From positions 1 through 22,475 of the IMG/VR virus record IMGVR_UViG_3300007541_000244: a DNA stretch of 22,475 nt; one strand, written 5' to 3'. The position numbers were made by a program, and so were the translations under genes. The notes under the pieces were generated by a model. The model was given only the letters and a program-made list of their open reading frames with translations, was not told the origin of the DNA and ran no database searches. The stretch is from a virus. Positions 5,867-22,475 of this stretch are shown one piece after another. Positions within the stretch are counted from its first letter, which is position 1. Every line of letters begins with the position of its first letter.

Positions 5867-5956
5867 ATGTTAAATGCTATTGCTAGGAAGTTTAAGCAGA
5901 TGAAGAAGAAGGGCATGTTCAACAAACGTGCCATCAATAAGATCAAGAAGCAGTGA
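5867..5956 (+). CDS. Small very basic protein (29 aa)
   Basis: 29 residues, MLNAIARKFKQMKKKGMFNK then RAINKIKKQ: amphipathic and Lys-rich. The ATG follows a CTATAT element by 6 nt, matching the 4658-4670 layout. The 3' end overlaps the convergent glycosyltransferase gene by 14 nt. Too short for a family assignment; the composition matches the other small plus-strand genes nearby. Confidence 0.45.
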   Translation: MLNAIARKFKQMKKKGMFNKRAINKIKKQ

Positions 5957-6623
5957 TCGGCAGGCGATGCTCTTCTATGAACTTGGCTCTGTTGACGTGC
6001 CAAGACTCTCTTCCCGCTAACTCGCCCCTGGAGTTATGTAGGACATTTATAGGGACTGTTCTATTCTTTAGACCTAGCTTGTGGGCAGTGAGGGTATAGT
6101 GGATATCGTAGTAATCCCACTCGCCTTCTAGGTAGCTGGGCTTTGCTAGACCGACCTTCCTTAGTGTCTTTCCTGACGCTGCAAGGAACAGGCCATCCAT
6201 GACCACGACTGTCTTGTATGGTCCATAGTAGGTTGGAGTAGACTCTAGAGCATGAGGACCATGCCAGACAATGCCTGAGTGATGTCCCTCTCTCCACGCC
6301 TGACCATTCCACCAAACAGCATCCTCTAGAAGTTTAGCAGTCCCAGCCACACCAATGAATCCTGCATCGTGTGCTAGGCATTGCATGAGGCAGTCTCTAA
6401 AGACCCACTTGCTGGACATGATCTCGATATCGTCGTGACACAGGATTACAATGTCGTCGTCCTTCACGTCACTGGAGTCTAATGCCTTCTGGTATCCTCC
6501 GAAGATAGACTTCTGATTAACCAGAAACTTAACCTTCACTCCTGCGTCTGATAGATAGGTAGAGAGGTTATGTGCTGTATCAGTCAGTTCCTTAGAGCGC
6601 GTGCAGATAAAAGCGTAGATCAT
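5943..6623 (-). CDS. GT-A-type glycosyltransferase
   Basis: 226 residues starting MIYAFICTRSKELTDTAHNL. An N-terminal Rossmann-like half leads to DDDIVILCHDDIEIM (about 55-69), where HDDIE supplies a DxD-like metal/nucleotide-sugar motif. Then come YKTVVVMDGLFLAAS (about 136-150), the usual acceptor-side segment of family-2-like enzymes, and WDYYDIHYTLTAHKLGLK (about 169-186), containing the probable catalytic acidic residues, and a late HNSRG. This suits a small soluble transferase that adds sugar from an activated donor to phage DNA, virion protein or host surface; the acceptor is unknown. It is transcribed opposite to terminase, with start codons 19 bp apart. Confidence 0.78.
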   Translation of the reverse strand: MIYAFICTRSKELTDTAHNLSTYLSDAGVKVKFLVNQKSIFGGYQKALDSSDVKDDDIVILCHDDIEIMSSKWVFRDCLMQCLAHDAGFIGVAGTAKLLEDAVWWNGQAWREGHHSGIVWHGPHALESTPTYYGPYKTVVVMDGLFLAASGKTLRKVGLAKPSYLEGEWDYYDIHYTLTAHKLGLKNRTVPINVLHNSRGELAGRESWHVNRAKFIEEHRLPITAS

Positions 6624-6642
6624 TTCATCGGTATAATAGGAT
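6624..6642. promoter_or_regulatory. Bidirectional TATAATA element between glycosyltransferase and terminase
   Basis: GGTATAATAGG is close to self-complementary in outline. It gives TATAAT (6632-6637) 5 nt before the terminase ATG and TATTAT (6638-6633, minus strand) 9 nt before the glycosyltransferase ATG. I see no -35 hexamer at 16-18 bp on either strand. Likely a shared late-type promoter. Confidence 0.5.
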
Positions 6643-8169
6643 ATGGATTACAAGGAAGAGTATCTAAGGTGCAAGAAAGATCCAATATACTTCATTAGCA
6701 AGTATATCAAGGTCGTCCACCCTATACGTGGTATGGTGCCATTCAAGCTATACCCTTTCCAGAAGGTGATACTTAACGCTCTTGAGACAGAGCGATTCAA
6801 CATACTTCGTAAGTTTCGCCAAGCAGGATGCACTACTATCGCTGCTGCATATTCTGTATGGAAGTGCTTGTTCAATTCACACCAAACCATAGTTATCCTA
6901 TCTGTGGGTGATACTGAATCTACTGAGGTTCTTGATCGTATTAAGATCATGTATGATGAGACTCCTGAGTGGATGCGACCTAAGGCTACTCAGATTAACG
7001 CTCACAACCTTAAACTAGAAAACAATAGCCACATTAAGTCTCGTCCTTCTGGTAAACAATCAGGCCGTGGTCTATCTGGATCACTACTCATTATTGACGA
7101 GGCTGCTTTCATTGAGCATATTGATACTATTTGGGCTGCTGTATATCCTATCATCTCGACTGGTGGTCGTGCTTTCGTGCTGTCTACTGTGAACGGTATA
7201 GGCAACTGGTATCATCAGATCTGGGAAGGGGCTGTAGAGGGGACTAACTCATTCAACCCTATTCAAATCAACTGGAAAGATCACCCTGAGTATAACAGGG
7301 TTGATGGGTTTGATTGGCTATACAAGGAGATGGAGCAGCGAGACCCTCCCATGAATATTGATGAATGGGAGAAGACTACACGCGCTAACCTTAGTCACAA
7401 GAAATGGCTACAAGAGTATGAGTGTGAATTCCTAGGAACAGGTGATACCTTCATCGAGGGACAGATCCTTAACTCACTGCTAGAGAACGTGTCTGAGGAC
7501 TTCTATAGGCTTTACAACAACCGAATGTATGTCTGGAAGGATCCTGATCCTACTACCTCTTACTTCATTGCTGCTGACGTAGCTCTAGGTCGTGAGCGTG
7601 ATTACTCCGCATTCCAGGTGGTCGATCTCCAGACTGGTGAGCAGGTAGCTGAGTTTTACAGCAACACTACCCCCATAAACGAGTTTGCACGTATCTTATT
7701 TGAGCAGGGGAACAGGTATAACGTAGCTCCCATACTTATTGAGCGTAATACGATTGGAAACAATCTAATCGACTACCTGTGGGAACAATTAGAATATGAC
7801 AACGTGTGGTTCGATGAGAAGGGCCTGCCTGGGTTCCAAACAACCACTAAAACCAGGGATCAAGTGCTGATTGAGATGGAAGAAGCACTACGCACATCTG
7901 AAGTAAAATTAAACTCCAAGCGCACTGTAATGGAGTTGAATACGTTCATTATCAGCGATAATGGTCGTTTCCAAGCAGATACAGGTCAAAATGATGACCT
8001 AGTGATGTCATTAGCACTATCTATCTATGGAGCTAGACGTTACAGAGAGGAGAATCCTGGGATCGTTATGAATAAGACGTTCCGAGAACAGAAACCACTC
8101 TCACCTCTTAAGTCGTATAGCTTCGGAGAAGGACGTAATGAGGACATCACATGGCTGATGAGAGACTGA
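6643..8169 (+). CDS. terL: Terminase large subunit (T4 gp17-like)
   Basis: 508 residues. This is the ATP-driven motor and nuclease that packages the genome into proheads through the portal. The ATPase half shows a Walker A-like loop RKFRQAGCTT (about 56-65), Walker B LLIIDEAAF (about 148-156) and the coupling motif LSTVNG (about 180-185). The C-terminal RNase H-like nuclease half has AADVALGRERDYSAFQVVD, with an expected metal-binding Asp, then ILIERNTIG and NDDLVMSLAL carrying further acidic residues. It is somewhat shorter than T4 gp17 (about 610). The ATG is 5 nt after a TATAAT box with little room for a ribosome site. The end overlaps the portal gene by 19 nt. No small terminase gene is recognisable next to it. 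Confidence 0.95.
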   Translation: MDYKEEYLRCKKDPIYFISKYIKVVHPIRGMVPFKLYPFQKVILNALETERFNILRKFRQAGCTTIAAAYSVWKCLFNSHQTIVILSVGDTESTEVLDRIKIMYDETPEWMRPKATQINAHNLKLENNSHIKSRPSGKQSGRGLSGSLLIIDEAAFIEHIDTIWAAVYPIISTGGRAFVLSTVNGIGNWYHQIWEGAVEGTNSFNPIQINWKDHPEYNRVDGFDWLYKEMEQRDPPMNIDEWEKTTRANLSHKKWLQEYECEFLGTGDTFIEGQILNSLLENVSEDFYRLYNNRMYVWKDPDPTTSYFIAADVALGRERDYSAFQVVDLQTGEQVAEFYSNTTPINEFARILFEQGNRYNVAPILIERNTIGNNLIDYLWEQLEYDNVWFDEKGLPGFQTTTKTRDQVLIEMEEALRTSEVKLNSKRTVMELNTFIISDNGRFQADTGQNDDLVMSLALSIYGARRYREENPGIVMNKTFREQKPLSPLKSYSFGEGRNEDITWLMRD

Positions 8170-9980
8170 ACGAGAACAGTGGTCCTGGAATGACCACATG
8201 GAACCCTACCCGATACGGTGATCTGTCGAACCTATACACGACAGGTTACATGGCTAAGATCTTTGGAAAGTTCTTTAGCACTGAGGTTAAGCGAAAGAAC
8301 GCTATCAAAGGTGATCCGCGCAATGTTGAAGGAGACCTTCTTGTAAATCCTAACTCTCCTGTAGTCGATCTCGGTCAGCCTGGGATGAGCTACAGTAGAG
8401 GTCTGCCTTTTATGCCTGAGGCAGAGCTAAACCGTAAGCGTAGGTATGATGAGTTCGAGAAGATGGACGAGTATCCTGAAATTACGGCTGCTCTAGACAT
8501 CTATGCTGATGAATCTACTCAAAAAGACCTTCGTAATAAGCGTTGGGTCGTCAAGTCAGACTCAGAAGAGGTCATTAAAGAGATTGAAAACCTATTTAAG
8601 CGCATTAGGCTTGACCACGTTTACTGGGACATCGTCCGTGGCACCTGTAAGTATGGTGACTCCTTCATTGAAGTTGTAGCTAATGCCAACGCTATGGACC
8701 AAGGCGTTCGTAAGATCAAGGTTCTGAACCCCTACTACATCCTAAGAATCGAGGATAAGTTCGGTCAACTAAAGACTTTCCTACAGGAAATACCAGAAAG
8801 ACAGGTAAATCAGGGAGATTGGATGAATTCCAACTCCAAATACCTCGAATTGGACAAGAATCAGATAGTTCACTTCCGACTTCACACGTCTGACCCCAAA
8901 TATTACCCCTACGGACGTTCAATTATGAGCGGTGCAATTCGAGTTTACCGCTCTCTTAAGCTAATGGAGGACGCGATGATCGTCTATCGCCTCTCTAGAG
9001 CACCTGAAAGACGCATTTTCTACGTCGATGTGGGTAATTTACCCTCTGGTAAGGCCGAACAGTTCATGGAAACCATGAAAATGCGCTTCAAGAAGGAGAA
9101 ATACGCCAATCAGAACCGTGTTGATAGCCGCCACAACCCTCTAGCGGTCGATGAGGACTTCTTCATCCCCATTAGAGGTAACCAAGGCACCAAAGTAGAC
9201 ACCTTAAAGGGCGCTGAGAACCTTGGAGAGGTCGATGACGTTAAGTATTTCAGAGATAAGCTCCTAGCAACCCTCAAAGTTCCCAAGGATTACATCGTAG
9301 AATACGATAAATCAGCCGAGCGCAAGGCAAACCTCGACCAACTGGACGTAAAGTTCGCTAGAGTTATCCAAAGGGTCATTCAAAGCGTGTCTCAAGGCTT
9401 TACACTCATTGCAAGACGCCATTTGGAGATGATTGGCTACCCCAAGAGCCAGATTAACAGCATGGAAGTTGTTCTTCCTGATGGTTCTGACATCTTCATC
9501 AAGCGTAAGATGGCTGTGGATGCTCAGAAGGCAGAGGTTATCACCAATGTTATGGCAACTGGTCTATTCCCTAAGTCCTACATCTATAAAGAGTTCTACG
9601 ATATGACGGAAACGGAGATCGAGATGCTCATGGCAGAGGCTGAGAAGGAGCAGGAAGAGCAGATGCAGCGTGAGGCCGACATGATGGCGCAGCAGCAGCA
9701 GGCCCAGGCCGCTGGACAGATGCAGCAGACGCAGGTTCAAGGCCAAACCGACATGGCTGTATCCAATAACCAAGCTCAGAACGACATGCAAGTGGCTGAT
9801 AATCAGGCTAAGAATGACGTTAGAGTGGAGAAGGCCAGACCCAAGCCTAAGCCAGCGGCCAAGCCTAAGAAGAAGAACGAAGAACTACAGTCACTTCGTA
9901 ACCAGATTATCCTAGAAGAGGGTGCAGATAGCCCCAGAGCAAGAGCTTTGCTACGTATTTTAAAGAAATATGATAATTAA
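8151..9980 (+). CDS. Portal protein (T4 gp20-like)
   Basis: 609 residues. Twelve copies should form the ring at one head vertex through which terminase drives DNA and to which the tail joins. Recognised from MDEYPEITAALDIYADEST (about 105-123), a hallmark of T4-type portals, and from the long helical core with GTCKYGDSFIEV and LKVPKDYIVEYDKSAERKAN. From about residue 500 there is a Gln/Met-rich, low-complexity tail (MMAQQQQAQAAG) ending in KPKPAAKPKKKNEELQSLRN, longer than usual. The start overlaps terL by 19 nt with GAGG upstream, suggesting coupled translation. ATG at 8190 is a less likely alternative. Confidence 0.92.
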   Translation: MADERLNENSGPGMTTWNPTRYGDLSNLYTTGYMAKIFGKFFSTEVKRKNAIKGDPRNVEGDLLVNPNSPVVDLGQPGMSYSRGLPFMPEAELNRKRRYDEFEKMDEYPEITAALDIYADESTQKDLRNKRWVVKSDSEEVIKEIENLFKRIRLDHVYWDIVRGTCKYGDSFIEVVANANAMDQGVRKIKVLNPYYILRIEDKFGQLKTFLQEIPERQVNQGDWMNSNSKYLELDKNQIVHFRLHTSDPKYYPYGRSIMSGAIRVYRSLKLMEDAMIVYRLSRAPERRIFYVDVGNLPSGKAEQFMETMKMRFKKEKYANQNRVDSRHNPLAVDEDFFIPIRGNQGTKVDTLKGAENLGEVDDVKYFRDKLLATLKVPKDYIVEYDKSAERKANLDQLDVKFARVIQRVIQSVSQGFTLIARRHLEMIGYPKSQINSMEVVLPDGSDIFIKRKMAVDAQKAEVITNVMATGLFPKSYIYKEFYDMTETEIEMLMAEAEKEQEEQMQREADMMAQQQQAQAAGQMQQTQVQGQTDMAVSNNQAQNDMQVADNQAKNDVRVEKARPKPKPAAKPKKKNEELQSLRNQIILEEGADSPRARALLRILKKYDN

Positions 9981-10033
9981 CGGGTTATGTGCCAATTTGG
10001 CAGGCTATATAGAAACTAGCCCTAACTATATCC
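9981..10033 (+). promoter_or_regulatory. Two hairpins and TATA-type motifs between portal and next gene
   Basis: TGCCA (9990-9994) / TGGCA (9998-10002) with a 3-nt loop resembles the first hairpin of the left-arm 62-bp elements. GGCTA (10003-10007) / TAGCC (10017-10021) follows. CTATAT occurs at 10005-10010 and 10026-10031. No Shine-Dalgarno precedes the ATG at 10034, so initiation may again be leaderless or nearly so. Confidence 0.45.
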
Positions 10034-11527
10034 ATGGACTTCTTCGAGCAGCGAAACCGCAAAGTATCAAACCTAAATCTTCTTGCCGACTCTTTATCAC
10101 ATTCTATTCGTGAAGGAGTTAGACTGTTCTCCGTGGACGATGTAGATTCAATCGCTACATTCGTTACAGAGAGCGGTCAGGTTATCCAAGGCCAGTATTA
10201 CTTTGGTGAGAAGCTGGTATTCGATAATATCGTGGTCGAGTCAGGAGAAGTGTTCAGTGATGAGAAGAGATTCGAGGAAGCTAACCGCGCCCGAGTCTCT
10301 TCTTTAATTGAGAGCATTTACTCAGACGATCTAGTGACCGCTGCTGACGCATTTGAGGACATCATCCAGTCCTGGGGCACGCAGCTAAAGTTTAACAAGA
10401 CTGTTGATCGTCTTACTGAACAAGCTGCTTCCTTCAATGCTACCTTTGATATAGTTGGCACTGACGAGTTTCAGCGATTCCTAGAGGTATCCGAGAACAT
10501 TAGCAAGTGGATGAATGAGAATAAGGAGTCTCTTGCTGCCAACCAAGAGATTACTCATGCTCTTAGACTTTCTGATACCGTATCGCGTGCATTCAACCTT
10601 GATCGTATGAGTCTTGAGCAGCTTGCCGAGAAAGCTCGATATGAGGTAGACTTCGGTGATAACCGCAGCATTTACGAGATGGTCTGCCAGCAGGAGCTTG
10701 TGAGCCGTGAAATCCTAGAGAGCAAGAAGTCGTTCGACCAGATCTGGGTTTCCGAGCCTAAGATTAACGCTCTAGCTGAGAAGATCTTCTCTACAGATCA
10801 GAAGGAGATTCAAAAGGCTCTTGTGGAGGCAGTTGCTGAGGTTCCTTACCTCGCCCTTATCAGCAAGAAGCAGCTTTCCAACACTGTTTCTAGATGCTTA
10901 AACATTGTGGCAGAAGACTTTGAGTATAACAAGTCTGATCTAAAGGAGTTCGTCTCAACATTGTTTGAGATGAAGAAGCCTCTAAAAGACCTAATCGGAA
11001 CTCTTCTTAGCGAGAAGTATGGTGTTAACATCAATAACCTCAAAGAAGCTCCTACCTTCCGCACACTCTTAAACACTCAGTCTCTTATATTTGAGTGTCT
11101 TGCTAAAGAGGCTCCACGTGGTAGCGTTGTGCGCGAGGCTTTAACCTCTATGTCTACCTTGCTAAAGGGTAAGAACGGCGTCCAGGCCATTGACGTAAAC
11201 TCTGGTTTAAGGTTCCTCTTCACTGAGTCTGGGTTCGACTCTGTTTACGCAGACCGCCCTGTCAGCGACTTTGCTCTTAACTCTCCTCTAACCGATAGTA
11301 AAGAGGACGTAGATTTCATCCTGTCTGAGCTTTACGACCACGCTATAGAAGAGGAGCAGGCTGTGGCTGAGAAGAAGAAGAAGCCAGCCTCAAAGAAGAA
11401 GCCAGACTCAGAATCTACTGAGGAAGAGGATGCTATTGAGGAAGACGGTGAGTCCGTAGAGGACTTCATGAAGAAGGTTGCTGAGATCGAAGATATTATC
11501 AACCCAACAGATGTTAGCGACGAGTGA
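10034..11527 (+). CDS. Hypothetical virion or head-assembly protein (497 aa)
   Basis: 497 residues starting MDFFEQRNRKVSNLNLLADS, predicted mostly helical. An N-terminal segment of about 90 residues includes IATFVTESGQVIQGQYYFGE, then long helices with many Glu, Lys and Ser. The C-terminal about 90 residues are low-complexity: a lysine block (EKKKKPASKKKPDSE) followed by an acidic run (STEEEDAIEEDGE). I recognise no family. Position directly after the portal, together with an acidic helical build, would suit a scaffold or internal head protein, but the usual T4-type protease and capsid genes are not next to it. That role is inference only. Confidence 0.75.
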   Translation: MDFFEQRNRKVSNLNLLADSLSHSIREGVRLFSVDDVDSIATFVTESGQVIQGQYYFGEKLVFDNIVVESGEVFSDEKRFEEANRARVSSLIESIYSDDLVTAADAFEDIIQSWGTQLKFNKTVDRLTEQAASFNATFDIVGTDEFQRFLEVSENISKWMNENKESLAANQEITHALRLSDTVSRAFNLDRMSLEQLAEKARYEVDFGDNRSIYEMVCQQELVSREILESKKSFDQIWVSEPKINALAEKIFSTDQKEIQKALVEAVAEVPYLALISKKQLSNTVSRCLNIVAEDFEYNKSDLKEFVSTLFEMKKPLKDLIGTLLSEKYGVNINNLKEAPTFRTLLNTQSLIFECLAKEAPRGSVVREALTSMSTLLKGKNGVQAIDVNSGLRFLFTESGFDSVYADRPVSDFALNSPLTDSKEDVDFILSELYDHAIEEEQAVAEKKKKPASKKKPDSESTEEEDAIEEDGESVEDFMKKVAEIEDIINPTDVSDE

Positions 11528-11574
11528 TATCTGCCTATAATCTCCTAAGCAGGTAAATACAATAGGAGAACAGT
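11528..11574 (+). promoter_or_regulatory. TATAAT element and strong ribosome binding site for the giant gene
   Basis: TATAAT at 11536-11541 lies within a possible CTGC/GCAG hairpin (11531-11534 / 11549-11552). TAGGAGA at 11563-11569 is a good Shine-Dalgarno 5 nt before ATG 11575. No -35 hexamer is evident. Unlike most genes here, this one clearly has a conventional leader. Confidence 0.55.
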
Positions 11575-14500
11575 ATGGCAGATTACTACCCCCTACGTAT
11601 CGTTTATGTTTCAGGTGTCCCCACTATCGGGGAGATGCAACCTGGAGACACCATCCCTGAGGCTGCTGGAGGAACTGGCTTCACCAGTGCTGATGAGTTC
11701 GCACAGCATGTATTCTCTTCATTCTCACACGGAGATCTAGCTGGCTTAGGAGATAACGATCACCCCCAGTATCTTCTAAAGACTGTTATTCAAACTGCTA
11801 GTGGTGCATGGGATAGTGCATATCGGCAGGTCCTCACCCTCAGCAACTCTTGGGAAGAGAGTGCAGACGTAACGTATGTCTCCTCTATCGTATCGGGTCT
11901 TCCTGCTGATATTATCTTCCTCAGTGGTCAAGTAGGATCCCAAGGAGATAAGATTAGTGAGGTCGCTGCTACCTCAGGGACGTGGGATAGTGTGTATGCC
12001 CAGGTCCTCACCCTCAGCAACTCTTGGGAAGAGAGTGCAGACGTAACGTATGTCTCCTCTGTAGTCTCTAGTGTAGAAGGATCTACTGTCAGCCTATCTG
12101 CCTACATTGCGGCTAACGAGGCCGATTGGATGACATCCGCATCCTTACCTCGATATCTTTCTGGTCTAGGTGACACTGACATAACCCCTGTTAGCGCTAT
12201 TGACGACCACCAGATCTTGGTCTGGGACGAAGCGGCTCAAAAGTGGATCAACGACTATAACGATGATTCCTATCTAAAGGTCTATAACAACACTACCTCG
12301 GCTATGAGCAGGGGTGATGTAGTTCATATTACAGGAGCCCATAACCCTAACACTGCGTATGTTGCGCTAGCTAAAGCTGACGCTGCATCTTCAATGCCTG
12401 CTATCGGTGTTCTATACGAGGACATTGCTATCAATGGAGAAGGTGTAGCTGTTATCTTCGGTAAGGCAGATGGCATGAATACCAGTGGCTTTACCGAAGG
12501 CACCACTGTATACGTGTCACCAACAACCGCTGGTGGACTAGTAAATACAAGACCTAGTGGGGTAAACGAACTAGTTCAGAACCTTGGTATCATCATGCGC
12601 TCTCATGAGAGCAATGGTGTCATCAAAGTAACTGGTGTAGGTAGAACTAACGACATCCCTAACAGCACCCAGGCAGAGATAGATCAGAATGCTGCTGATA
12701 TCGTGTTCCTGTCTGGTATCGCGGGAGCTTCTACCGATGATATCGCAGAGATTGCCGCTGCCTCTGGAACTTGGGACTCTGTCTATGCTCAGGTCCTTAC
12801 CCTCTCTGATAGTTGGGAAGAGTCTTCTGACATTACTTATGTCAGTGGTGTAGTCGATACTAACACAAGTAACATCACTGCCAACGACAACGATATTACT
12901 TACGTTTCAGGTGTTGTAAGTGAACTTGGCGACGATATGACCGAGGTTCGTGCAGCCTCAGGAACTTGGGATAGTGTATACGCTCAGGTCGTCTCCCTAA
13001 GCAACTCATGGGAAGAGAGTGCTGATATTAGCTATGTGTCAGGTGTAGTTGATGCTAACACGACTAACATTACTGCCAACGACAATGACATCACCTTCCT
13101 ATCAGGTATTACTGCTGCTCAAGGTGATGACATTGCTGAGATAGCAGCAGCGTCTAGCACTTGGGATTCTGCCTACGCTCAAGTCCTTAGCCTTAGTGAC
13201 TCCTGGGAAGAGAGTGCAGACCTAACATACGTCTCTGGCGTAGTCGATGGTAACTCTTCTGACATCACCTTCGTGTCAGGTATTGTAGGTGATCAGGGCA
13301 ACAAGATTAGCGAGGTAGCAGCAGCCTCTGGAACTTGGGATAGCGTATATCAGCAAGTCCTTAGCCTTAGTGACTCTTGGGAAGAGAGTGCAGACATCAC
13401 CTACGTAAGTGGTGTAATAGATACCAACACAACCAACATTACCGCTAACGACAATGACATCACCTTCCTATCAGGTATTACTGCTGCTCAAGGTGATGAT
13501 ATTGCTGAGGTAGCAGCAGCTAGTGCTACATGGGATAGCGTATACGCACAGGTTCTTTCCCTTAGTAACTCATGGGAAGAGAGTGCAGATATTAGCTATG
13601 TGTCAGGTGTAGTTGATGGCAATGCAGCAGACATTACTTACCTCTCTGGAGTTAGTGATGCACATGACTCTGACATTGCCTTCCTATCAGGTATTACTGC
13701 CTCTCAAGGTGATGATATTGCAGAGGTAGCCGCTGCCAGCGCTACATGGGATAGCGTATACGCTCAAGTCCTCAGCCTTAGCAACTCTTGGGAAGAGAGT
13801 GCTGACATCAGCTATGTCTCTGGTGTCGTCTCACAGAACATTATCGACATTGGCACGAACTCTAGCGACATTACTAGCAACACTAACCTGATCTCTGCCA
13901 ATACGGCAGATATCGCCAATCTTGGGACGGTCAGTGGTAACATCGCTACTAACACTGCTAATATCACTGCCAATGACAACGACATAACATTCCTATCAGG
14001 TATTACTGCTGCTCAAGGTGATGATATTGCTGAGGTGGCCGCTGCTTCTGGAACTTGGGATAGCGTATACGCACAGGTGCTATCACTGAGTGACTCATGG
14101 GAAGAGTCTGCTGACATAACATATGTCAGTGGTGTAGTAGATACCAACACCACCAACATCACTGCTAACGATAACGACATTACTTATGTCAGCGGAGTCG
14201 TCAGTGAACTTGGTGATGACATGACCGAGGTTCGTGCGGCATCGGGAACTTGGGATAGTGTATATGCTCAGGTCGTAAGCCTTAGCAACTCCTGGGAAGA
14301 AAGTGCTGACCTTACTTATGTCTCTGGTGTTGTAGATAACAACGCTATTAACATCACTCGTAACGACAATGACATTACTTATCTCTCAGGTGTCATTGAT
14401 GGTAACGATGCTGATATTACCTTCCTCTCAGGTATTACTGCCGATCAAGGTGATGATATCGCTGAGGTTGCAGCAGCTAGCGGCACTTGGGATAGTGTAT

Positions 14501-17500
14501 ACGCACAGGTTCTATCTCTTAGTAACTCTTGGGAAGAGAGTGCAGATATTACCTACGTATCAGGTGTAGTAGACGACAACGCAGCAGATATCACCTACCT
14601 CTCTGGTGTTAGTGATGCACAGGATGCAGACATCACCTTCGTGTCAGGTATTGTAGGTAACCAGGGCAATAAGATTAGTGAGGTGGCGGCGGCTTCTGGA
14701 ACTTGGGATAGCGTATATCAGCAAGTCCTTAGCCTAAGCAACTCATGGGAAGAGAGTGCAGATATTAGCTATGTAAGCGGTGTAGTCGCACAGAACATCA
14801 TTGATATTGGCACTAACTCCAGCGACATTACTAGCAACACAGGGCTTATCAGTGACAATGCCTCTGATATTACCTACCTCTCTAGCGTTGTTTCTGGTGT
14901 AGCAGGTGGTGACCTAGCTTACGTGTCAGGTGTTGTAGACGCTAATACTGCTGATATCTCCAACCTTGGCTCTGTCTCTGCTAACATCGCTACTAACACT
15001 GCCAATATCACTACTAACGACAACGATATTACTTACGTTAGTGGAGCAGTTAGCGATCTCAGTGACGACATGACAGAGGTTCGTGCAGCCTCAGGAACTT
15101 GGGATAGTGTGTATGCTCAGGTAGTGTCTCTCAGCAACTCATGGGAAGAGAGTGCAGACATCACCTACGTAAGTGGTGTAGTAGATACCAACACCACCAA
15201 CATCACTGCTAACGATAACGACATTACCTTTGTATCAGGTATCGTAAGTGACCAAGGTGATGACATTGCAGAGGTGGCAGCAGCAAGCGCTACCTGGGAT
15301 TCAGTATATGCTCAAGTTCTCAGTCTCTCTTCGTCTTGGGAAGAAAGCCCCGATATCTCTTACGTGTCAGGGGTCGTTGCCCAGAATCAAGCCGATGTGG
15401 CTAACCTGGGAAGTGTATCGGCCAACATTCAATCTAACACTGACGATATCACCTTCCTGGGAGGAGTCAGTGCGGGAATCGCGGATAACGAAGCTGATGT
15501 AACATGGCTATCAGGCATAGTTGGTGGGCAAGGAGATAAGATCTCTGAGGTCGCTGCTGCTAGTTCTACATGGGACAGTGCATATGCACAGGTGCTTACC
15601 CTCAGTAACGCATGGGAAGAGTCGGCAGATATTAGCTATGTCTCTAGTGTTGTAGATAACAACGCTATTAACATCACTCGCAATGATAACGACATTTCCT
15701 ATATGTCAGGTATCATTGACGACAATACTGCTGATATCTCCAACCTAGGTTCTGTATCTGCTAACATCGCTACCAACACAGCAGATATTGCTTACCTAGG
15801 AACTGTCTCTGGTAACATACTGACCAATGCTAGCAACATCTCCGCTAACACAGCAGACATTAGTAACCTAGGAAGTGTTAGTGCTAACATCGCTACCAAC
15901 ACTGCCAATATTACTGCTAACGATGGCGACATTACCTACGTTAGTGGGGCAGTTAGCGATATCAGTGCTGACATGACCGAGGTTCGTGCGGCTTCGGGCA
16001 CATGGGACAGTGTATACGCCCAGGTTGCTTCCCTTAGTAGCTCTTGGGAAGAGTCCGCCGACATCACCTACGTGTCAGGTGTTGTAGACGATAACACTGC
16101 TGACATCTCCAACCTTGGAAGTGTAAGCGCTAACATCGCTACCAACACTGCTAACATCACTGCCAACGACAATGATATTACCTTTGTATCAGGCATAGTC
16201 GGTGGACAAGGTGATAAGATCTCTGAGATAGCTGCTGCTTCTGGAACTTGGGACAGCGTTTACTCACAAGTCCTTTCTCTTAGTAACGCATGGGAAGAGA
16301 GTGCAGACCTTACATATGTCAGTGGAGTAGTAGACAATAACGCCCTCAATATCACTCGTAATGATAATGACATCTCCTATATGTCGGGTATCATTGACGA
16401 TAATACTTCTGACATCTCCAACCTAGGTGGCGTGTCTGCCAACATCGCTACTAACACAGCAGATATTACCTACCTGGGGACTGTCTCTGGTAACATCCTG
16501 ACCAATGCCACCAACATCTCTGCTAACACAGCGGACATCAACAACCTTGGCAGCGTCAGTGCTAACATCGCAACCAACACAGCTAACATTACTGCTAACG
16601 ACAACGATATTTCCTGGGTGTCAGGTATTGTTGGTGGTCAAGGCGATAAGATCACTGAGGTTGCAGCAGCTAGCGGAACTTGGGATAGTGTATATCAGCA
16701 AGTTCTTAGCCTAAGCAACTCATGGGAAGAGAGTGCTGACCTTACCTATGTCAGTGGTGTTGTAGATAACAACGCTATTAATATAACTCGCAATGATAAC
16801 GACATCTCCTACATGTCAGGTATCATTGATGGAAACACTTCAGATATCACGTATGTGTCTGGAGTTGTAGATATCAATACCTCGGCTATTGAAAACGCCC
16901 TAGACCTTAGTGATATCACCACATACATAGAGCATGGAGATTTAAACGGTCTAGGAGATAATGATCACCCTCAATACCTACTAAGCTCTGTTTTAGCAGC
17001 AGCTAGTGGTGTTTGGCAGAGCACCTACAATCAAGTAAATAGCCTGTCCTCCTCTTGGGAGGAGTCGGCTGATATAACATATGTCTCCGGTGTAGTAGAT
17101 GCTAACACTGCTGACATCTCTAACCTAGGGTCTGTATCTGCCAACATCGCTACCAACACTGCTAACATCACTGCTAACGACAACGACATTACCTACGTTA
17201 GTGGAGCAGTTAGCGATCTCAGTGACGACATGACAGAGGTTCGTGCAGCCTCAGGAACTTGGGATTCAGTATACGCCCAGGTTCTTTCACTGTCTAACTC
17301 ATGGGAAGAGTCTGCTGATATAACTTATGTCTCTGGTGTAGTTGATGCTAATACTGCTGACATCTCTAACCTTGGCACTGTAAGTGGCAACATCGCTACT
17401 AACACAGGTAACATTTCTAGTAACACTGCTGACATTGGTTATCTTGGAACTGTATCAGGAAACATCCTGACTAACGCTTCTAACATCACTACCAATGCTA

Positions 17501-20500
17501 ACGACATTACTGCACTAGAGGCTGACGTAGCTAACCTAGGCAGTGTAAGTGCTAATATCGCTACTAACACAAGTAACATCACTGCCAACGACAACGACAT
17601 AAGCTATGTTTCTGGCGTAGTAAGTGAGCTTGGCGATGACATGACCGAGGTCAGGGCGGCTTCTGGAACTTGGGATAGTGTGTATGCACAGGTCCTCAGC
17701 CTTAGTAACTCTTGGGAAGAGAGTGCTGACCTTACCTATGTCAGTGGTGTAGTAGATGATAACACAGCCGACATAAGCAACCTAGGTAGTGTAAGCGCTA
17801 ACATAGCCACTAACACTATTAACATCACTCGCAATGATAACGACATCTCCTACATGTCAGGTGTCATTGACGGTAAGACCTCTGATATTTCTTATGTATC
17901 GGGCATAATTGATGATAACGCTGCTGATATCTCTAACCTGGGATCTGTCAGTGCGGATATTGCTACTAACACGTCCAGAAGCCTAGGAAACCTAGCCGAC
18001 ATAAACAACCTAAAGGCAGTGTCAGGTTCAATATCAGTGAACACTGCTGATATAAGTTACTTAGGCGCGGCATCAGGTGATTGGGAAAGTGTTTACTCTC
18101 AAGTTCAGTCTCTATCGGCATCGTGGGAAGAGAGCGCAGACATTAGCTATGTGTCAGGTGTAGTAGATACTAACACAAGTAACATCACTGCCAACGACAA
18201 TGACATCACCTTCGTGTCAGGTATTGTAGGTGATCAGGGCAACAAGATTAGCGAGGTAGCAGCAGCCTCTGGAACTTGGGATAGCGTGTATGCACAGGTC
18301 CTTAGCCTAAGCAATTCTTGGGAAGAGTCTGTTGACATTACCTATGTCTCAGGAGTAGTTGATGCTAATACTGCCGACATCTCTAACCTCGGTAGTGTAT
18401 CGGCTAACATTGCTACTAACACTGCTAACATTTCTTCTAATGACAGTGATATCTCATACCTATCAAGTATAATAGATGCCAACAGTTCTTCAATTGCAAG
18501 CGCCTTAGAACTTAGTGATGTATCTATCGAGTTCGATAGTTTAGTATCTAGCATTCATCATGGAAGTCTTAGCGGACTAGGAGATAACGATCACCCTCAA
18601 TATCTACTAAGCTCTGTCCTCGCAGCAGCCAGCGGCGTTTGGCAGGACACGTATAACCAAGTAAATACCCTATCTGCTTCTTGGGAAGAGTCGGCTGATA
18701 TAACCTATGTCTCAGGAGTAGTAGATGGTAATACTTCTGACATCAGTTACGTATCAGGTATAGTAGATGCTAATACTTCTGCTATCGAAGATGTTTATGA
18801 TCTAAGCGATATCGAGGCTTTTATTGATCATGGTAATATCGCTGGTCTTTCTGACAATGATCACCCTCAATATTTACTAAGCTCTGTCTTCGCAGCAGCC
18901 AGCGGCGTTTGGCAGGACACGTATAACCAAGTAAATACCCTATCTGCTTCTTGGGAAGAGAGTGCGGACATTAGCTACGTCTCAGGCGTAGTCGATGCTA
19001 ACACAGCAGACATCTCTAACCTTGGAACTGTAAGCGCCAACATTGCCACTAACACTTCTAACATCACTGCTAACACAGCAGATATCACCTACATCGGCAC
19101 TGTCTCTGGCAACATTCTAACCAATGCTACTAACATCAGCACGAACGCAGGTAACATTACGACCAATGCCAATGACATTACTGCTCTTGAGGCTGACATG
19201 GCTAATGTTATTAGCACCTCTGGAAACTGGGACAGCGCCTACTCTCAAGTTCAGTCCTTGTCTGCGTCCTGGGAAGAGTCTGCTGATATAACCTATGTCT
19301 CAGGTGTAGTTGATTCAAAGGTCAACAAAGAACTTCTAGGTCATTACATTGAACCTTGGACAGAGGGAAGTGGTAATCAAAATGCTCCGACTGGTTGGAA
19401 TAGTTATAGCACATCATCTCTTAGAGAGTTTGATACTGATCCTTTTGGCAACCAAAGTATTATTTGGAAAGCTATTGATACTGATGTTACTTCTGATGGA
19501 GAGGGGGGATTTAATAGTGGTAAAGTCCCAGCGGATGCAAGCTCGACATATAGATTCTCTTGTTTCATTAAGCAGGAAAATACTGCTAGTGGAGGCGTAT
19601 ACTTTGGAAACTATGCTCATAGTAGTCTAGAAGGAGGCACTAATGATCATCGAGTAGATGTTAGATCGGCAGGAGCAGCATCAGGAACAGGAAATATTAA
19701 TCCATATTTCATATCTAATCTACCAATGCCTAGCACTGACTGGTATCTTGCGGTTGCTTATCTACACGCTTATCAAACTGAAACAGGTCCTAGCACTCGT
19801 CAGGAAACAGGCATATACAAAGTATCTACTGGTGAGAAGGTTTCATTTAGTATTACTGATAGGGTATTTGACGATACTACCGCTATTGCACTCGGTATTA
19901 GAGCTTACCACTTCAATAACCCAGCAGGAACAGGAGATGCTATTCAATTCTTCCAACCAAGGATTGATCTTGTAGACGGTAATGAACCTTCAATAACTGA
20001 TCTATTAGGTATAGTCCCAAGAACAGATTATGTCCTCTCTTCTACTAACAGTGCATTAAGTAGTCTTGTTGATGATAACACTGCTGATATAACCTATGTC
20101 TCAGGTGTAGTTGATTCTAACACTGCCGACATCTCCAACCTAGGCTCGGTATCGGCTAACATCGCTACTAACACTAGCAACATCAGCACCAACGCTAATG
20201 ACATAACTGCTCTTGAGGCAGATGTAGCTAACCTAGGCAGCGTATCTGCTAACATAGCTACTAACACTAGCAATATTACCACTAACGCTAATGACATTAC
20301 AGCGCTAGAAGCTGACGTAGCTAACCTTGGTTCTGTCTCTGCTAATATCGCCACTAACACTAGCAACATTAGCACTAACGCAGGGAACATTACAACCAAT
20401 GCTAATGACATAACTGCTCTTGAGGCAGACATGGCTAACGTTATTAGCACCTCTGGTAACTGGAACAGCGTCTATGGAACGGTAGGATCCCTGTCTTCTA

Positions 20501-22475
20501 CTTGGGACCCAGACACAGCGGCAGAGATTTTAACAAAGATAAAGACTGTTGATGGAGCAGGATCTAATCTTGATGCGGATCTTCTAGATGGTCAACAAGG
20601 TTCTTACTATCTCAACACTGGGACCGCAACTCAGGATAAGAATGGGCTTCTTAGACTTGATCAAGTCGGGGTATCCAAGTATATTGATAGCAAAACATGG
20701 TCTTATGGAGATTTTAGTTCTACAAGCCAGATGCCAACTCTCCGAGGATTCACCGTAAAACCTAAAGGTTACGGTGATGATGGTAAGGGTATTGAGTTTA
20801 GGTATGATACTATTCAAACTGCTTACCTATTAGACGAACATTCTGGTGCTACCTACAACATTCTGGAGGGAAGCGACCCTGGTGAAACACTTATAAAGAG
20901 GTTTACAAGATACACTAATAACTATTTCAATCTGAACAGTTATAAGAGTGCAAGTAATGCTTGGGAGATTGAGTTTAGTGGATTCACAATCAGTAACTCT
21001 TCTTGGAATTATTGGAAACCTTTACTTCTTTGGCATGGCACTCCAGGCACATCAGTAGGTGATATCACAATCGAAGCATTGGAAGGTGATGGCACTACTT
21101 GGACCACTATTTTCAGTGGAACTATGCCAACTTTACCTGACCAGCGCGATGTCATATTCCCAGAAAACTACTATGCAACCACTACTGGCAGCCTCAAAGG
21201 AATGAGGCTGCGTATTGAGGGTATTACAGGCAACTGTTACCTAAAGATGTTCGGTATGACCTCCAAAACATCAGCCAGCTTCCAATGGCAAATGCTTAAG
21301 GATGGTGGAAACTTCTATGGAAATGTTTATGGAAAGGAAGACGGTCTACAAACATGGTATATTGAACAAGCAGGAACAGGAGTATTTAAGAACCTATTTG
21401 CGGGAGGACAAGATGTTAGCGCAGCCATATCGGAATATAATAGCAATGAATACAAATGGGATGCTAATGCTGCTGACATCTCTAATCTAGGTTCTGCGTC
21501 TGGAAACTGGAACTCGGCGTATTCTCAGGTCCAGTCACTATCTGCTTCTTGGGAAGAGTCCGCTGATATCTCCTATGTCTCTGGAGTGGTTGATGCTAAT
21601 ACTGCTGACATTAGTAACCTAGGTAGTGTTAGTGCTAACATCGCTACTAACACTAGCAACATCAGCACTAACACGGGTAACATTAGTGATAACGCTGCTG
21701 ACATCTCCTGGATGTCTGGTATTGTTGGTGGTCAAGGCGATAAAATCAGCGAGGTAGCTGCTGCCTCTGGTGACTGGGATGGGACATACTCTACTGTCCT
21801 GGCTAACTCTGGGACGTGGGGCACTGTCTACAACGATAGTGCCTTGGCGGCTGCTTCTGGTAACTGGAACTCTGCATACTCCCAGGTCCAGTCCTTGTCG
21901 GCCTCTTGGGAAGAGAGTGCAGATATTAGTTATGTAAGTGGAGTGGTTGATGCAAACACTGCTGACATCTCTAACCTTGGTTCTGTATCTGCTAATATCG
22001 CCACAAACACTTCTAACATTAGCACTAATGCAGGAAACATTACAACCAACGCTAATGACATCACGGCCCTTGAGGCAGATGTTGCTAACCTTGGTTCTGT
22101 ATCAGCTAACATCGCTACTAACACTAGCAACATCAGCACTAACGCAGGCAACATTACTACTAACGCTAACGACATTACTGCCCTTGAGGCAGACATGGCG
22201 AACGTCATTAGCACTTCTGGGAACTGGAACTCGGTATACTCCCAGGTTCAGAGCCTATCTGGTAGCTGGGAAGAGAGTAGTGACATTAGTTACGTCAGTG
22301 GAGTAGTAGATGATAACACTGCTGATATATCTTATGTCTCTGGTGTAGTAGATACTAATACTTCTGCTATAGAAAATGCTCTTGATCTCAGTGACATCAC
22401 AACATACATAGAGCATGGTGATCTTAACGGTCTTGGAGATAACGACCACCCTCAATATGTTCTTTCTTCAACAAA
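11575..22475 (+). CDS. Giant repeat-built tail fibre / adhesin-type protein (3' end outside window)
   Basis: At least 3,633 codons with no stop, read in one frame from ATG 11575 (MADYYPLRIVYVSGVPTIGE) to the window edge. Order of parts: the N-terminal leader; collar motif HGDLAGLGDNDHPQYLL (about 52-68); WEES modules; a globular domain at about 235-363 with KVYNNTTSAMSRGDVV and LVQNLGIIMRSHES, of a type seen in marine phage fibres; a long array of WEES modules and Asn/Ile heptads; a carbohydrate-binding-like domain at about 2583-2816; a domain opened by VDGAGSNLDADLLDGQ at about 2986-3293; then more repeats and a fifth collar motif at 3614. The NxxxI heptads suggest a trimeric fibrous stalk. 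It probably reaches to or binds the host surface. GC is lower than in the left arm. The C-terminal tip is not visible. Confidence 0.9.
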   Translation, partial: MADYYPLRIVYVSGVPTIGEMQPGDTIPEAAGGTGFTSADEFAQHVFSSFSHGDLAGLGDNDHPQYLLKTVIQTASGAWDSAYRQVLTLSNSWEESADVTYVSSIVSGLPADIIFLSGQVGSQGDKISEVAATSGTWDSVYAQVLTLSNSWEESADVTYVSSVVSSVEGSTVSLSAYIAANEADWMTSASLPRYLSGLGDTDITPVSAIDDHQILVWDEAAQKWINDYNDDSYLKVYNNTTSAMSRGDVVHITGAHNPNTAYVALAKADAASSMPAIGVLYEDIAINGEGVAVIFGKADGMNTSGFTEGTTVYVSPTTAGGLVNTRPSGVNELVQNLGIIMRSHESNGVIKVTGVGRTNDIPNSTQAEIDQNAADIVFLSGIAGASTDDIAEIAAASGTWDSVYAQVLTLSDSWEESSDITYVSGVVDTNTSNITANDNDITYVSGVVSELGDDMTEVRAASGTWDSVYAQVVSLSNSWEESADISYVSGVVDANTTNITANDNDITFLSGITAAQGDDIAEIAAASSTWDSAYAQVLSLSDSWEESADLTYVSGVVDGNSSDITFVSGIVGDQGNKISEVAAASGTWDSVYQQVLSLSDSWEESADITYVSGVIDTNTTNITANDNDITFLSGITAAQGDDIAEVAAASATWDSVYAQVLSLSNSWEESADISYVSGVVDGNAADITYLSGVSDAHDSDIAFLSGITASQGDDIAEVAAASATWDSVYAQVLSLSNSWEESADISYVSGVVSQNIIDIGTNSSDITSNTNLISANTADIANLGTVSGNIATNTANITANDNDITFLSGITAAQGDDIAEVAAASGTWDSVYAQVLSLSDSWEESADITYVSGVVDTNTTNITANDNDITYVSGVVSELGDDMTEVRAASGTWDSVYAQVVSLSNSWEESADLTYVSGVVDNNAINITRNDNDITYLSGVIDGNDADITFLSGITADQGDDIAEVAAASGTWDSVYAQVLSLSNSWEESADITYVSGVVDDNAADITYLSGVSDAQDADITFVSGIVGNQGNKISEVAAASGTWDSVYQQVLSLSNSWEESADISYVSGVVAQNIIDIGTNSSDITSNTGLISDNASDITYLSSVVSGVAGGDLAYVSGVVDANTADISNLGSVSANIATNTANITTNDNDITYVSGAVSDLSDDMTEVRAASGTWDSVYAQVVSLSNSWEESADITYVSGVVDTNTTNITANDNDITFVSGIVSDQGDDIAEVAAASATWDSVYAQVLSLSSSWEESPDISYVSGVVAQNQADVANLGSVSANIQSNTDDITFLGGVSAGIADNEADVTWLSGIVGGQGDKISEVAAASSTWDSAYAQVLTLSNAWEESADISYVSSVVDNNAINITRNDNDISYMSGIIDDNTADISNLGSVSANIATNTADIAYLGTVSGNILTNASNISANTADISNLGSVSANIATNTANITANDGDITYVSGAVSDISADMTEVRAASGTWDSVYAQVASLSSSWEESADITYVSGVVDDNTADISNLGSVSANIATNTANITANDNDITFVSGIVGGQGDKISEIAAASGTWDSVYSQVLSLSNAWEESADLTYVSGVVDNNALNITRNDNDISYMSGIIDDNTSDISNLGGVSANIATNTADITYLGTVSGNILTNATNISANTADINNLGSVSANIATNTANITANDNDISWVSGIVGGQGDKITEVAAASGTWDSVYQQVLSLSNSWEESADLTYVSGVVDNNAINITRNDNDISYMSGIIDGNTSDITYVSGVVDINTSAIENALDLSDITTYIEHGDLNGLGDNDHPQYLLSSVLAAASGVWQSTYNQVNSLSSSWEESADITYVSGVVDANTADISNLGSVSANIATNTANITANDNDITYVSGAVSDLSDDMTEVRAASGTWDSVYAQVLSLSNSWEESADITYVSGVVDANTADISNLGTVSGNIATNTGNISSNTADIGYLGTVSGNILTNASNITTNANDITALEADVANLGSVSANIATNTSNITANDNDISYVSGVVSELGDDMTEVRAASGTWDSVYAQVLSLSNSWEESADLTYVSGVVDDNTADISNLGSVSANIATNTINITRNDNDISYMSGVIDGKTSDISYVSGIIDDNAADISNLGSVSADIATNTSRSLGNLADINNLKAVSGSISVNTADISYLGAASGDWESVYSQVQSLSASWEESADISYVSGVVDTNTSNITANDNDITFVSGIVGDQGNKISEVAAASGTWDSVYAQVLSLSNSWEESVDITYVSGVVDANTADISNLGSVSANIATNTANISSNDSDISYLSSIIDANSSSIASALELSDVSIEFDSLVSSIHHGSLSGLGDNDHPQYLLSSVLAAASGVWQDTYNQVNTLSASWEESADITYVSGVVDGNTSDISYVSGIVDANTSAIEDVYDLSDIEAFIDHGNIAGLSDNDHPQYLLSSVFAAASGVWQDTYNQVNTLSASWEESADISYVSGVVDANTADISNLGTVSANIATNTSNITANTADITYIGTVSGNILTNATNISTNAGNITTNANDITALEADMANVISTSGNWDSAYSQVQSLSASWEESADITYVSGVVDSKVNKELLGHYIEPWTEGSGNQNAPTGWNSYSTSSLREFDTDPFGNQSIIWKAIDTDVTSDGEGGFNSGKVPADASSTYRFSCFIKQENTASGGVYFGNYAHSSLEGGTNDHRVDVRSAGAASGTGNINPYFISNLPMPSTDWYLAVAYLHAYQTETGPSTRQETGIYKVSTGEKVSFSITDRVFDDTTAIALGIRAYHFNNPAGTGDAIQFFQPRIDLVDGNEPSITDLLGIVPRTDYVLSSTNSALSSLVDDNTADITYVSGVVDSNTADISNLGSVSANIATNTSNISTNANDITALEADVANLGSVSANIATNTSNITTNANDITALEADVANLGSVSANIATNTSNISTNAGNITTNANDITALEADMANVISTSGNWNSVYGTVGSLSSTWDPDTAAEILTKIKTVDGAGSNLDADLLDGQQGSYYLNTGTATQDKNGLLRLDQVGVSKYIDSKTWSYGDFSSTSQMPTLRGFTVKPKGYGDDGKGIEFRYDTIQTAYLLDEHSGATYNILEGSDPGETLIKRFTRYTNNYFNLNSYKSASNAWEIEFSGFTISNSSWNYWKPLLLWHGTPGTSVGDITIEALEGDGTTWTTIFSGTMPTLPDQRDVIFPENYYATTTGSLKGMRLRIEGITGNCYLKMFGMTSKTSASFQWQMLKDGGNFYGNVYGKEDGLQTWYIEQAGTGVFKNLFAGGQDVSAAISEYNSNEYKWDANAADISNLGSASGNWNSAYSQVQSLSASWEESADISYVSGVVDANTADISNLGSVSANIATNTSNISTNTGNISDNAADISWMSGIVGGQGDKISEVAAASGDWDGTYSTVLANSGTWGTVYNDSALAAASGNWNSAYSQVQSLSASWEESADISYVSGVVDANTADISNLGSVSANIATNTSNISTNAGNITTNANDITALEADVANLGSVSANIATNTSNISTNAGNITTNANDITALEADMANVISTSGNWNSVYSQVQSLSGSWEESSDISYVSGVVDDNTADISYVSGVVDTNTSAIENALDLSDITTYIEHGDLNGLGDNDHPQYVLSST
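11728..11778 (+). repeat. Collar motif DNDHPQY, copy 1
   Basis: HGDLAGLGDNDHPQYLL. The HGxLxGLxDxDHxQYL signature recurs in phage tail fibres and collar-linked proteins and usually sits near the virion-proximal end. Further copies are at 16933, 18559, 18829 and 22414. Confidence 0.85.
11827..11886 (+). repeat. 60-bp exact tandem-type repeat (partner 12001-12060)
   Basis: Identical to 12001-12060 at an offset of 174 bp, encoding QVLTLSNSWEESADVTYVSS. Confidence 0.9.
13260..13346 (+). repeat. 87-bp exact repeat (partner 18201-18287)
   Basis: Base-for-base identical to 18201-18287, 4,941 bp away, including all third codon positions, while flanking units differ. It encodes DITFVSGIVGDQGNKISEVA and the start of the GTWDS motif. 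Confidence 0.9.
15034..15105 (+). repeat. 72-bp exact repeat (partner 17194-17265)
   Basis: Identical to 17194-17265, 2,160 bp away, encoding YVSGAVSDLSDDMTEVRAAS and GTWD. The same protein segment occurs elsewhere with different codons. Confidence 0.88.
16933..16983 (+). repeat. Collar motif DNDHPQY, copy 2
   Basis: HGDLNGLGDNDHPQYLL, preceded by AIENALDLSDITTYIE and followed by SSVLAAASGVW, where the unit re-enters the WEES pattern. Confidence 0.85.
18559..18609 (+). repeat. Collar motif DNDHPQY, copy 3
   Basis: HGSLSGLGDNDHPQYLL followed by SSVLAAASGVWQDTYNQVN. The following 81 nt are repeated 270 bp further on with one change. Confidence 0.85.
18610..18690 (+). repeat. 81-bp direct repeat (partner 18880-18960)
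   Basis: Matches 18880-18960 at 80 of 81 bases (CTC versus TTC). The 270-bp offset equals a whole unit containing a collar motif and a WEES motif. Confidence 0.9.
18829..18879 (+). repeat. Collar motif DNDHPQY, copy 4
   Basis: HGNIAGLSDNDHPQYLL, 270 bp after copy 3, followed by SSVFAAASGVWQDTYNQVN. Confidence 0.85.
22414..22464 (+). repeat. Collar motif DNDHPQY, copy 5
   Basis: HGDLNGLGDNDHPQYVL at the window edge, preceded by the same AIENALDLSDITTYIE as copy 2. Confidence 0.85.

Follow-up and report, generated by a model that had tools for sequence, protein, structure and literature searches.

A giant reading frame in an uncultivated T4-like phage probably encodes a modular virion fibre with a long coiled-coil array

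Results

The locus and its giant reading frame

The DNA analysed here (the window) comprises 22,475 bases and corresponds to one IMG/VR record; the giant frame sits on its + strand. The late-region features are listed below, with residue numbers referring to the giant protein.

6643..8169, + strand: T4-type terminase large subunit (gp17), from database matches
8151..9980, + strand: T4-type portal protein (gp20), matching Portal_T4 at E 1.1e-70
10034..11527, + strand: 497-aa gene directly upstream of the giant gene, conserved in the group
11575..22473, + strand: giant gene, probably a fibre; 3,633 codons here, open at the window edge, and at least 3,978 in sister contig G001
11575..11690, + strand: N-terminal anchor, residues 1 to ~38, MADxxPLRIVxVSGxPTIGExxxGDT..GGTG (alignments A1 and A4; 32 IMG/VR loci)
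11725..11778, + strand: HGDLAGLGDNDHPQYL (HPQY) motif, residues 51-68, recurring near residues 1786, 2330 and 3609 and in relatives
12157..12729, + strand: beta-domain, residues 195-385; relatives' copies are 48-63% identical
12730..19299, + strand: coiled-coil array, residues ~386-2575, of W-D-S-Y...WEESADITYVSGVVD units and NLGSVSANIATNTxNI heptad units
19315..20019, + strand: carbohydrate-binding-module-like (CBM-like) domain 1, residues 2581-2815 (AlphaFold2 pLDDT 78, pTM 0.83)
20047..20499, + strand: short coiled-coil stretch, residues ~2825-2975, period 3.46-3.48
20500..21474, + strand: DADLLDG motif and predicted globular segment, residues ~2976-3300, lacking coiled-coil periodicity
21475..22473, + strand: second coiled-coil stretch, running past the window; in L051 it is followed by CBM-like domain 2 (~3723-3965)

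The giant frame starts with an ATG at 11575, just downstream of a GGAG motif, and continues to 22473 for 3,633 codons without a stop. The remaining frames of this interval carry 188 and 488 stops on the + strand and 141, 407 and 150 on the - strand, which excludes an open frame arising by chance. Sister contigs from three other metagenome assemblies (G001, G002 and G003; IMG/VR 3300025646, 3300022200 and 3300025687) align to the array without gaps at 99.93-99.98% identity. The longest, G001, carries the frame on to 3,978 codons without a stop before its own edge, so that 3,633 codons is a lower bound and the gene, whose end lies outside the available sequence, spans at least 12,000 bases. These results bear out the original prediction of a frame of more than 3,633 codons reaching the window edge. 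Extension of the contig, which had been proposed as a check, lengthened the frame but did not reach its stop; searches for a stop codon that used the G001 end and array peptides as queries returned only contigs already known. Frames of this kind at contig edges, which are dropped by gene callers that require a stop, can rank among the largest phage genes.

The array region is highly repetitive, as it would be if a fibre of ordinary length had been inflated by duplication during assembly, and an early stop combined with such duplication was the outcome named in advance as contradicting the prediction. The G001 frame is still open, and we regard assembly duplication as so improbable as to be ruled out: the three sister contigs agree with the array without gaps, exact internal repeats reach at most 87 bp, with no repeated 100-mer, and the repeat copies have a mean DNA identity of 71%, with 60% of fourfold-degenerate sites differing (near saturation). 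In addition, G003 differs from the window at eight places inside the ORF, most of them grouped in two short stretches towards its end; these point differences of its own show that it does not simply duplicate the same assembly. Divergence between the copies falls mainly at third positions. Comparison of 26 copies of the main unit gave 1758, 1509 and 4252 differences at codon positions 1, 2 and 3, and synonymous codon differences outnumber nonsynonymous ones by 3618 to 1407; the dominance of third-position and synonymous differences indicates that the protein sequence of the repeats has been maintained by purifying selection.

Genomic surroundings

The giant gene comes last in the order T4-type terminase, T4-type portal, 497-aa gene, giant gene. 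The terminase is only 30-34% identical to its nearest counterparts in phage records (Flavobacterium phage immuto, cyanophages and others), and the 497-aa gene has no match in PHROG, Pfam or phage records. In relatives, the slot after the 500-aa gene is filled by a 138-141-aa gene, a fibre gene beginning MFKSF and a fibre gene beginning MADxIPLRIV in varying combination, with a helicase beyond.

Several other observations concern the rest of the window. A glycosyltransferase-like gene (Glyco_tranf_2_5, 5943-6623 on the minus strand) is the divergent neighbour of the terminase, as it is in relatives whose contigs extend that far. G+C content is 0.50-0.59 at positions 1-4000 versus 0.42-0.48 in the late region (6500-22475), and neither RNA families (Rfam) nor tRNAs were found in the window. 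An intergenic element is repeated before the minus-strand, perhaps early, genes, with palindromes at 289, 1293, 2261, 3031 and 3727 (+ coordinates), and is also present in L021, L032 and L033. It combines a CTGCCATTTTGGCAG palindrome and an imperfect hairpin with two boxes, CTTGCA/TTGAAA and CTACTATA/CTATTATA. The ATG lies exactly 5 nt past the last box in 10 of 12 copies, which suggests that mRNAs of the genes behind the element may be leaderless.

N-terminal anchor and beta-domain

The anchor is the part conserved throughout the family and is common to about 30 contigs. Its PLR...IGE...GD...GGTG pattern is present in the giant protein, with 14 invariant columns in alignment A1 and, over 70 residues, 44% identity with the reference row; identity across the first 42 residues was 64% in the IMG/VR search, and a search of genome contigs found no relatives of the anchor. 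Genes of this family share one slot and differ in their shafts, and their products range from 446 to at least 3,978 aa. As a side observation, L045, L022 and L061 combine the same anchor with collagen-like GPQG shafts that are open at the contig edge (at least 1,482 aa in L045).

The beta-domain matches proteins of Synechococcus and Flavobacterium phages annotated as tail fibre or fibritin, at 33-41% identity. One of these, from S-CRES1, is annotated as fibritin, and the S-SM2 fibre with the same domain sits between gp16 and gp17. These observations raise the possibility that the giant protein is a head or neck filament, resembling that of phiCbK or an overgrown whisker/fibritin, instead of a tail fibre; the attachment biology would be similar and the geometry would differ. 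The gene itself follows terminase, portal and the 497-aa gene, the slot in relatives precedes a helicase, and phiCbK gp76, which has 2,799 aa, a lectin domain, tandem expansions and a place near head genes, is a proposed head filament (PMC3556154). However, the related 112-kb contig G006 groups head, tail and baseplate genes on the same side of the genome, so gene position is weak evidence. We consider a head or neck filament possible, if rather doubtful.

The predicted coiled-coil array

Hydrophobic residues recur with a period of 3.42-3.46 along residues 376-2575 in nearly every 150-residue sliding window, and the main periodicity peak, at 3.43 residues, lies within the range of 3.3-3.7 set for a shaft. 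A register fit divides the array into 637 layers of 3.43 residues with 44 stammer-like and 23 nonad-like breaks, and scores 1.23 per layer versus 0.75 +/- 0.016 for shuffles. Asparagine occupies 89 of about 350 d layers (a quarter), a residue and layer position also known from trimeric autotransporter stalks, and the pattern [ILV]xxNxxx[ILV] occurs 110 times versus 15 +/- 4 expected. A 3.43-residue period together with asparagine d layers is a signature of trimeric coiled coils, and the array would accordingly be expected to form three-chain rods. AlphaFold2 modelling of residues 1-400 gave a mean pLDDT of 39, too low for use, so the trimeric assignment rests on sequence periodicity. By extension from trimeric coiled coils in which nonads make beta-layers (PMC4786415), the nonads of the array may do the same.

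Array peptides had no match in phage records with the low-complexity filter on, and a sequence search against solved structures gave none. Weak whole-protein Pfam matches to DUF4363, Fib_alpha, Mu Gp37 and Sec10 were set aside as coiled-coil or compositional, and no stretch passes the threshold alone. The array is an unusually long natural coiled coil with a periodicity below that of heptads, and it could serve as a test case for how stammers and the proposed beta-layers shape long rods.

Bacterial trimeric autotransporter stalks also typically show the IxxN heptad signature, and sharing it would suit an adhesin that is secreted or displayed on the cell, or some other phage-carried protein that is not part of the virion. 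The N-terminus, however, is a phage-family anchor with no obvious signal peptide on inspection, and the gene occupies a slot in the late structural region that relatives fill with other fibre genes; a non-virion protein is in our judgement very improbable.

Distal domains

The model of CBM-like domain 1 is a predicted beta-sandwich that matches solved carbohydrate-binding modules of the CBM4-2 and CBM16 folds with Z of 10-11 and rmsd of ~3 A over 135-150 residues; Foldseek gave E of about 1e-4, with a TM by query of only 0.35-0.46. CBM-like domain 2, at ~3723-3965 in G001, is 37% identical to domain 1. The distal domains are thus predicted to fold like carbohydrate-binding modules, a resemblance of fold from which sugar binding may be surmised. 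Between them, the N-terminal part of the 2976-3300 segment (the DADxLDG region) matches tail-fibre PHROGs, and the segment has no copy in related loci except the sister contigs. Matches of the protein are to generic tail-fibre PHROGs; none of the T4 fibre families passed the threshold in Pfam or PHROGs.

A length difference at one junction, and a swapped cassette

L038, a relative whose gene is complete (1,339 aa), encodes the beta-domain and CBM-like domain 1 at a distance of 4 nt, whereas the window protein has about 2,200 residues between them. Since the flanking domains adjoin in L038, the array represents extra length at a single junction; the comparison gives a difference in length, which could reflect gain here or loss there. 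L038 and L039 are, as a separate observation, 99.9% identical through the fibre gene and then diverge at once, with different downstream genes.

The whole fibre cassette also differs between near-identical phages. L014 matches the window at 98.4% identity across 5,626 bp until the two part at 11490; from there its fibre operon is a different one, with a 138-aa gene and an MFKSF fibre. That MFKSF fibre (L014 6073-10734), in place of the giant gene, has at least 1,554 aa and three copies of the CBM-like domain.

Discussion

A fibre or adhesin, as had been predicted, is the best reading of the giant frame. It is supported by the anchor, the beta-domain, the periodicity of the shaft, the CBM-like folds and the DADxLDG matches to PHROGs, and we think it very likely that the product of the frame is a giant fibre (adhesin) on the virion of an aquatic T4-like myophage. 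The conserved N-terminal anchor would fasten three chains to the virion, and the coiled-coil stretches, mainly the one of ~2,200 residues, would come together as a parallel three-chain rod that contains asparagine layers and is regularly interrupted by stammer- or nonad-like breaks. The distal carbohydrate-binding-like domains, with a C-terminal tip beyond the data, may bind polysaccharide on or around the host, and the rod would act as a spacer or tether that holds this sugar-binding end hundreds of nanometres off the particle.

Fibre lengths given here in nm are projections from residue counts. A coiled coil rises 0.148 nm per residue, and at this value the central array projects to ~320 nm, and the coiled stretches of the window together to ~410 nm. 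With the figure given in PMC3556154 (12-20 residues per nm), 3,978 residues correspond to about 200-330 nm. We tentatively propose that the fibre reaches ~200-430 nm or more and exceeds the T4 long tail fibre at 145 nm (PMC5537660), that its overwound, break-rich array of 3.43 residues per turn was inserted and expanded between domains that adjoin in relatives, and that its cassette is exchanged between near-identical phages; the case for this reading is suggestive and could well prove wrong. The locus offers a well-controlled case of length change in a phage fibre, in which the anchor, beta-domain and next domain are the same and ~2,200 more residues stand at one junction, and the 98.4%-identical phage with its different cassette belongs to the same set of comparisons.

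Long modular phage fibres are a known kind, of which the giant frame is an extreme member within our non-exhaustive literature comparison. The closest systems are complete MADxIPLRIV-anchored relatives of the same uncultivated T4-like group (L033, 955 aa; L038, 1,339 aa; L064, 564 aa; L063, 446 aa; L067, 487 aa), which share the anchor, the genomic slot and HPQY motifs and, in several cases, the beta-domain. The window fibre is about three times as long as the longest of them, or more; L038, with a CBM-like domain 85% identical to the window's, lacks the array where the window has roughly 2,200 residues of coiled coil. Tail-fibre-like proteins of Kyanoviridae (S-SM2, 554 aa; S-PRM1, 1,319 aa) and of Flavobacterium phage immuto (587 aa; all lengths from annotated coordinates) share the beta-domain at 33-41% identity but are shorter and do not match the anchor or array.

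The frame had been predicted to be far longer than ordinary tail fibres, and its 3,633 codons are real, but giant length alone is not unprecedented, because one tail-fibre PHROG model has 3,319 positions and phiCbK gp76 has 2,799 aa (PMC3556154). The latter, compared here by its description, resembles the window protein in being giant, in its lectin-type domain, in lying near head genes and in its internal expansion, but it is glycine-rich and predicted to be coil/beta rather than coiled coil (PMC3556154). The T4 long tail fibre proteins gp34 and gp37 are likewise parts of a trimeric modular phage fibre; gp34, however, has 1,289 aa, the portion of known structure is largely beta, interspersed with short helical domains, and the whole 145-nm fibre is built from four proteins (PMC5537660). 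Trimeric autotransporter stalks and alpha/beta coiled coils (PMC4786415) resemble the array in having heptads broken by stammer- and nonad-type insertions, whereas the window protein is phage-borne, with no YadA-type membrane anchor seen.
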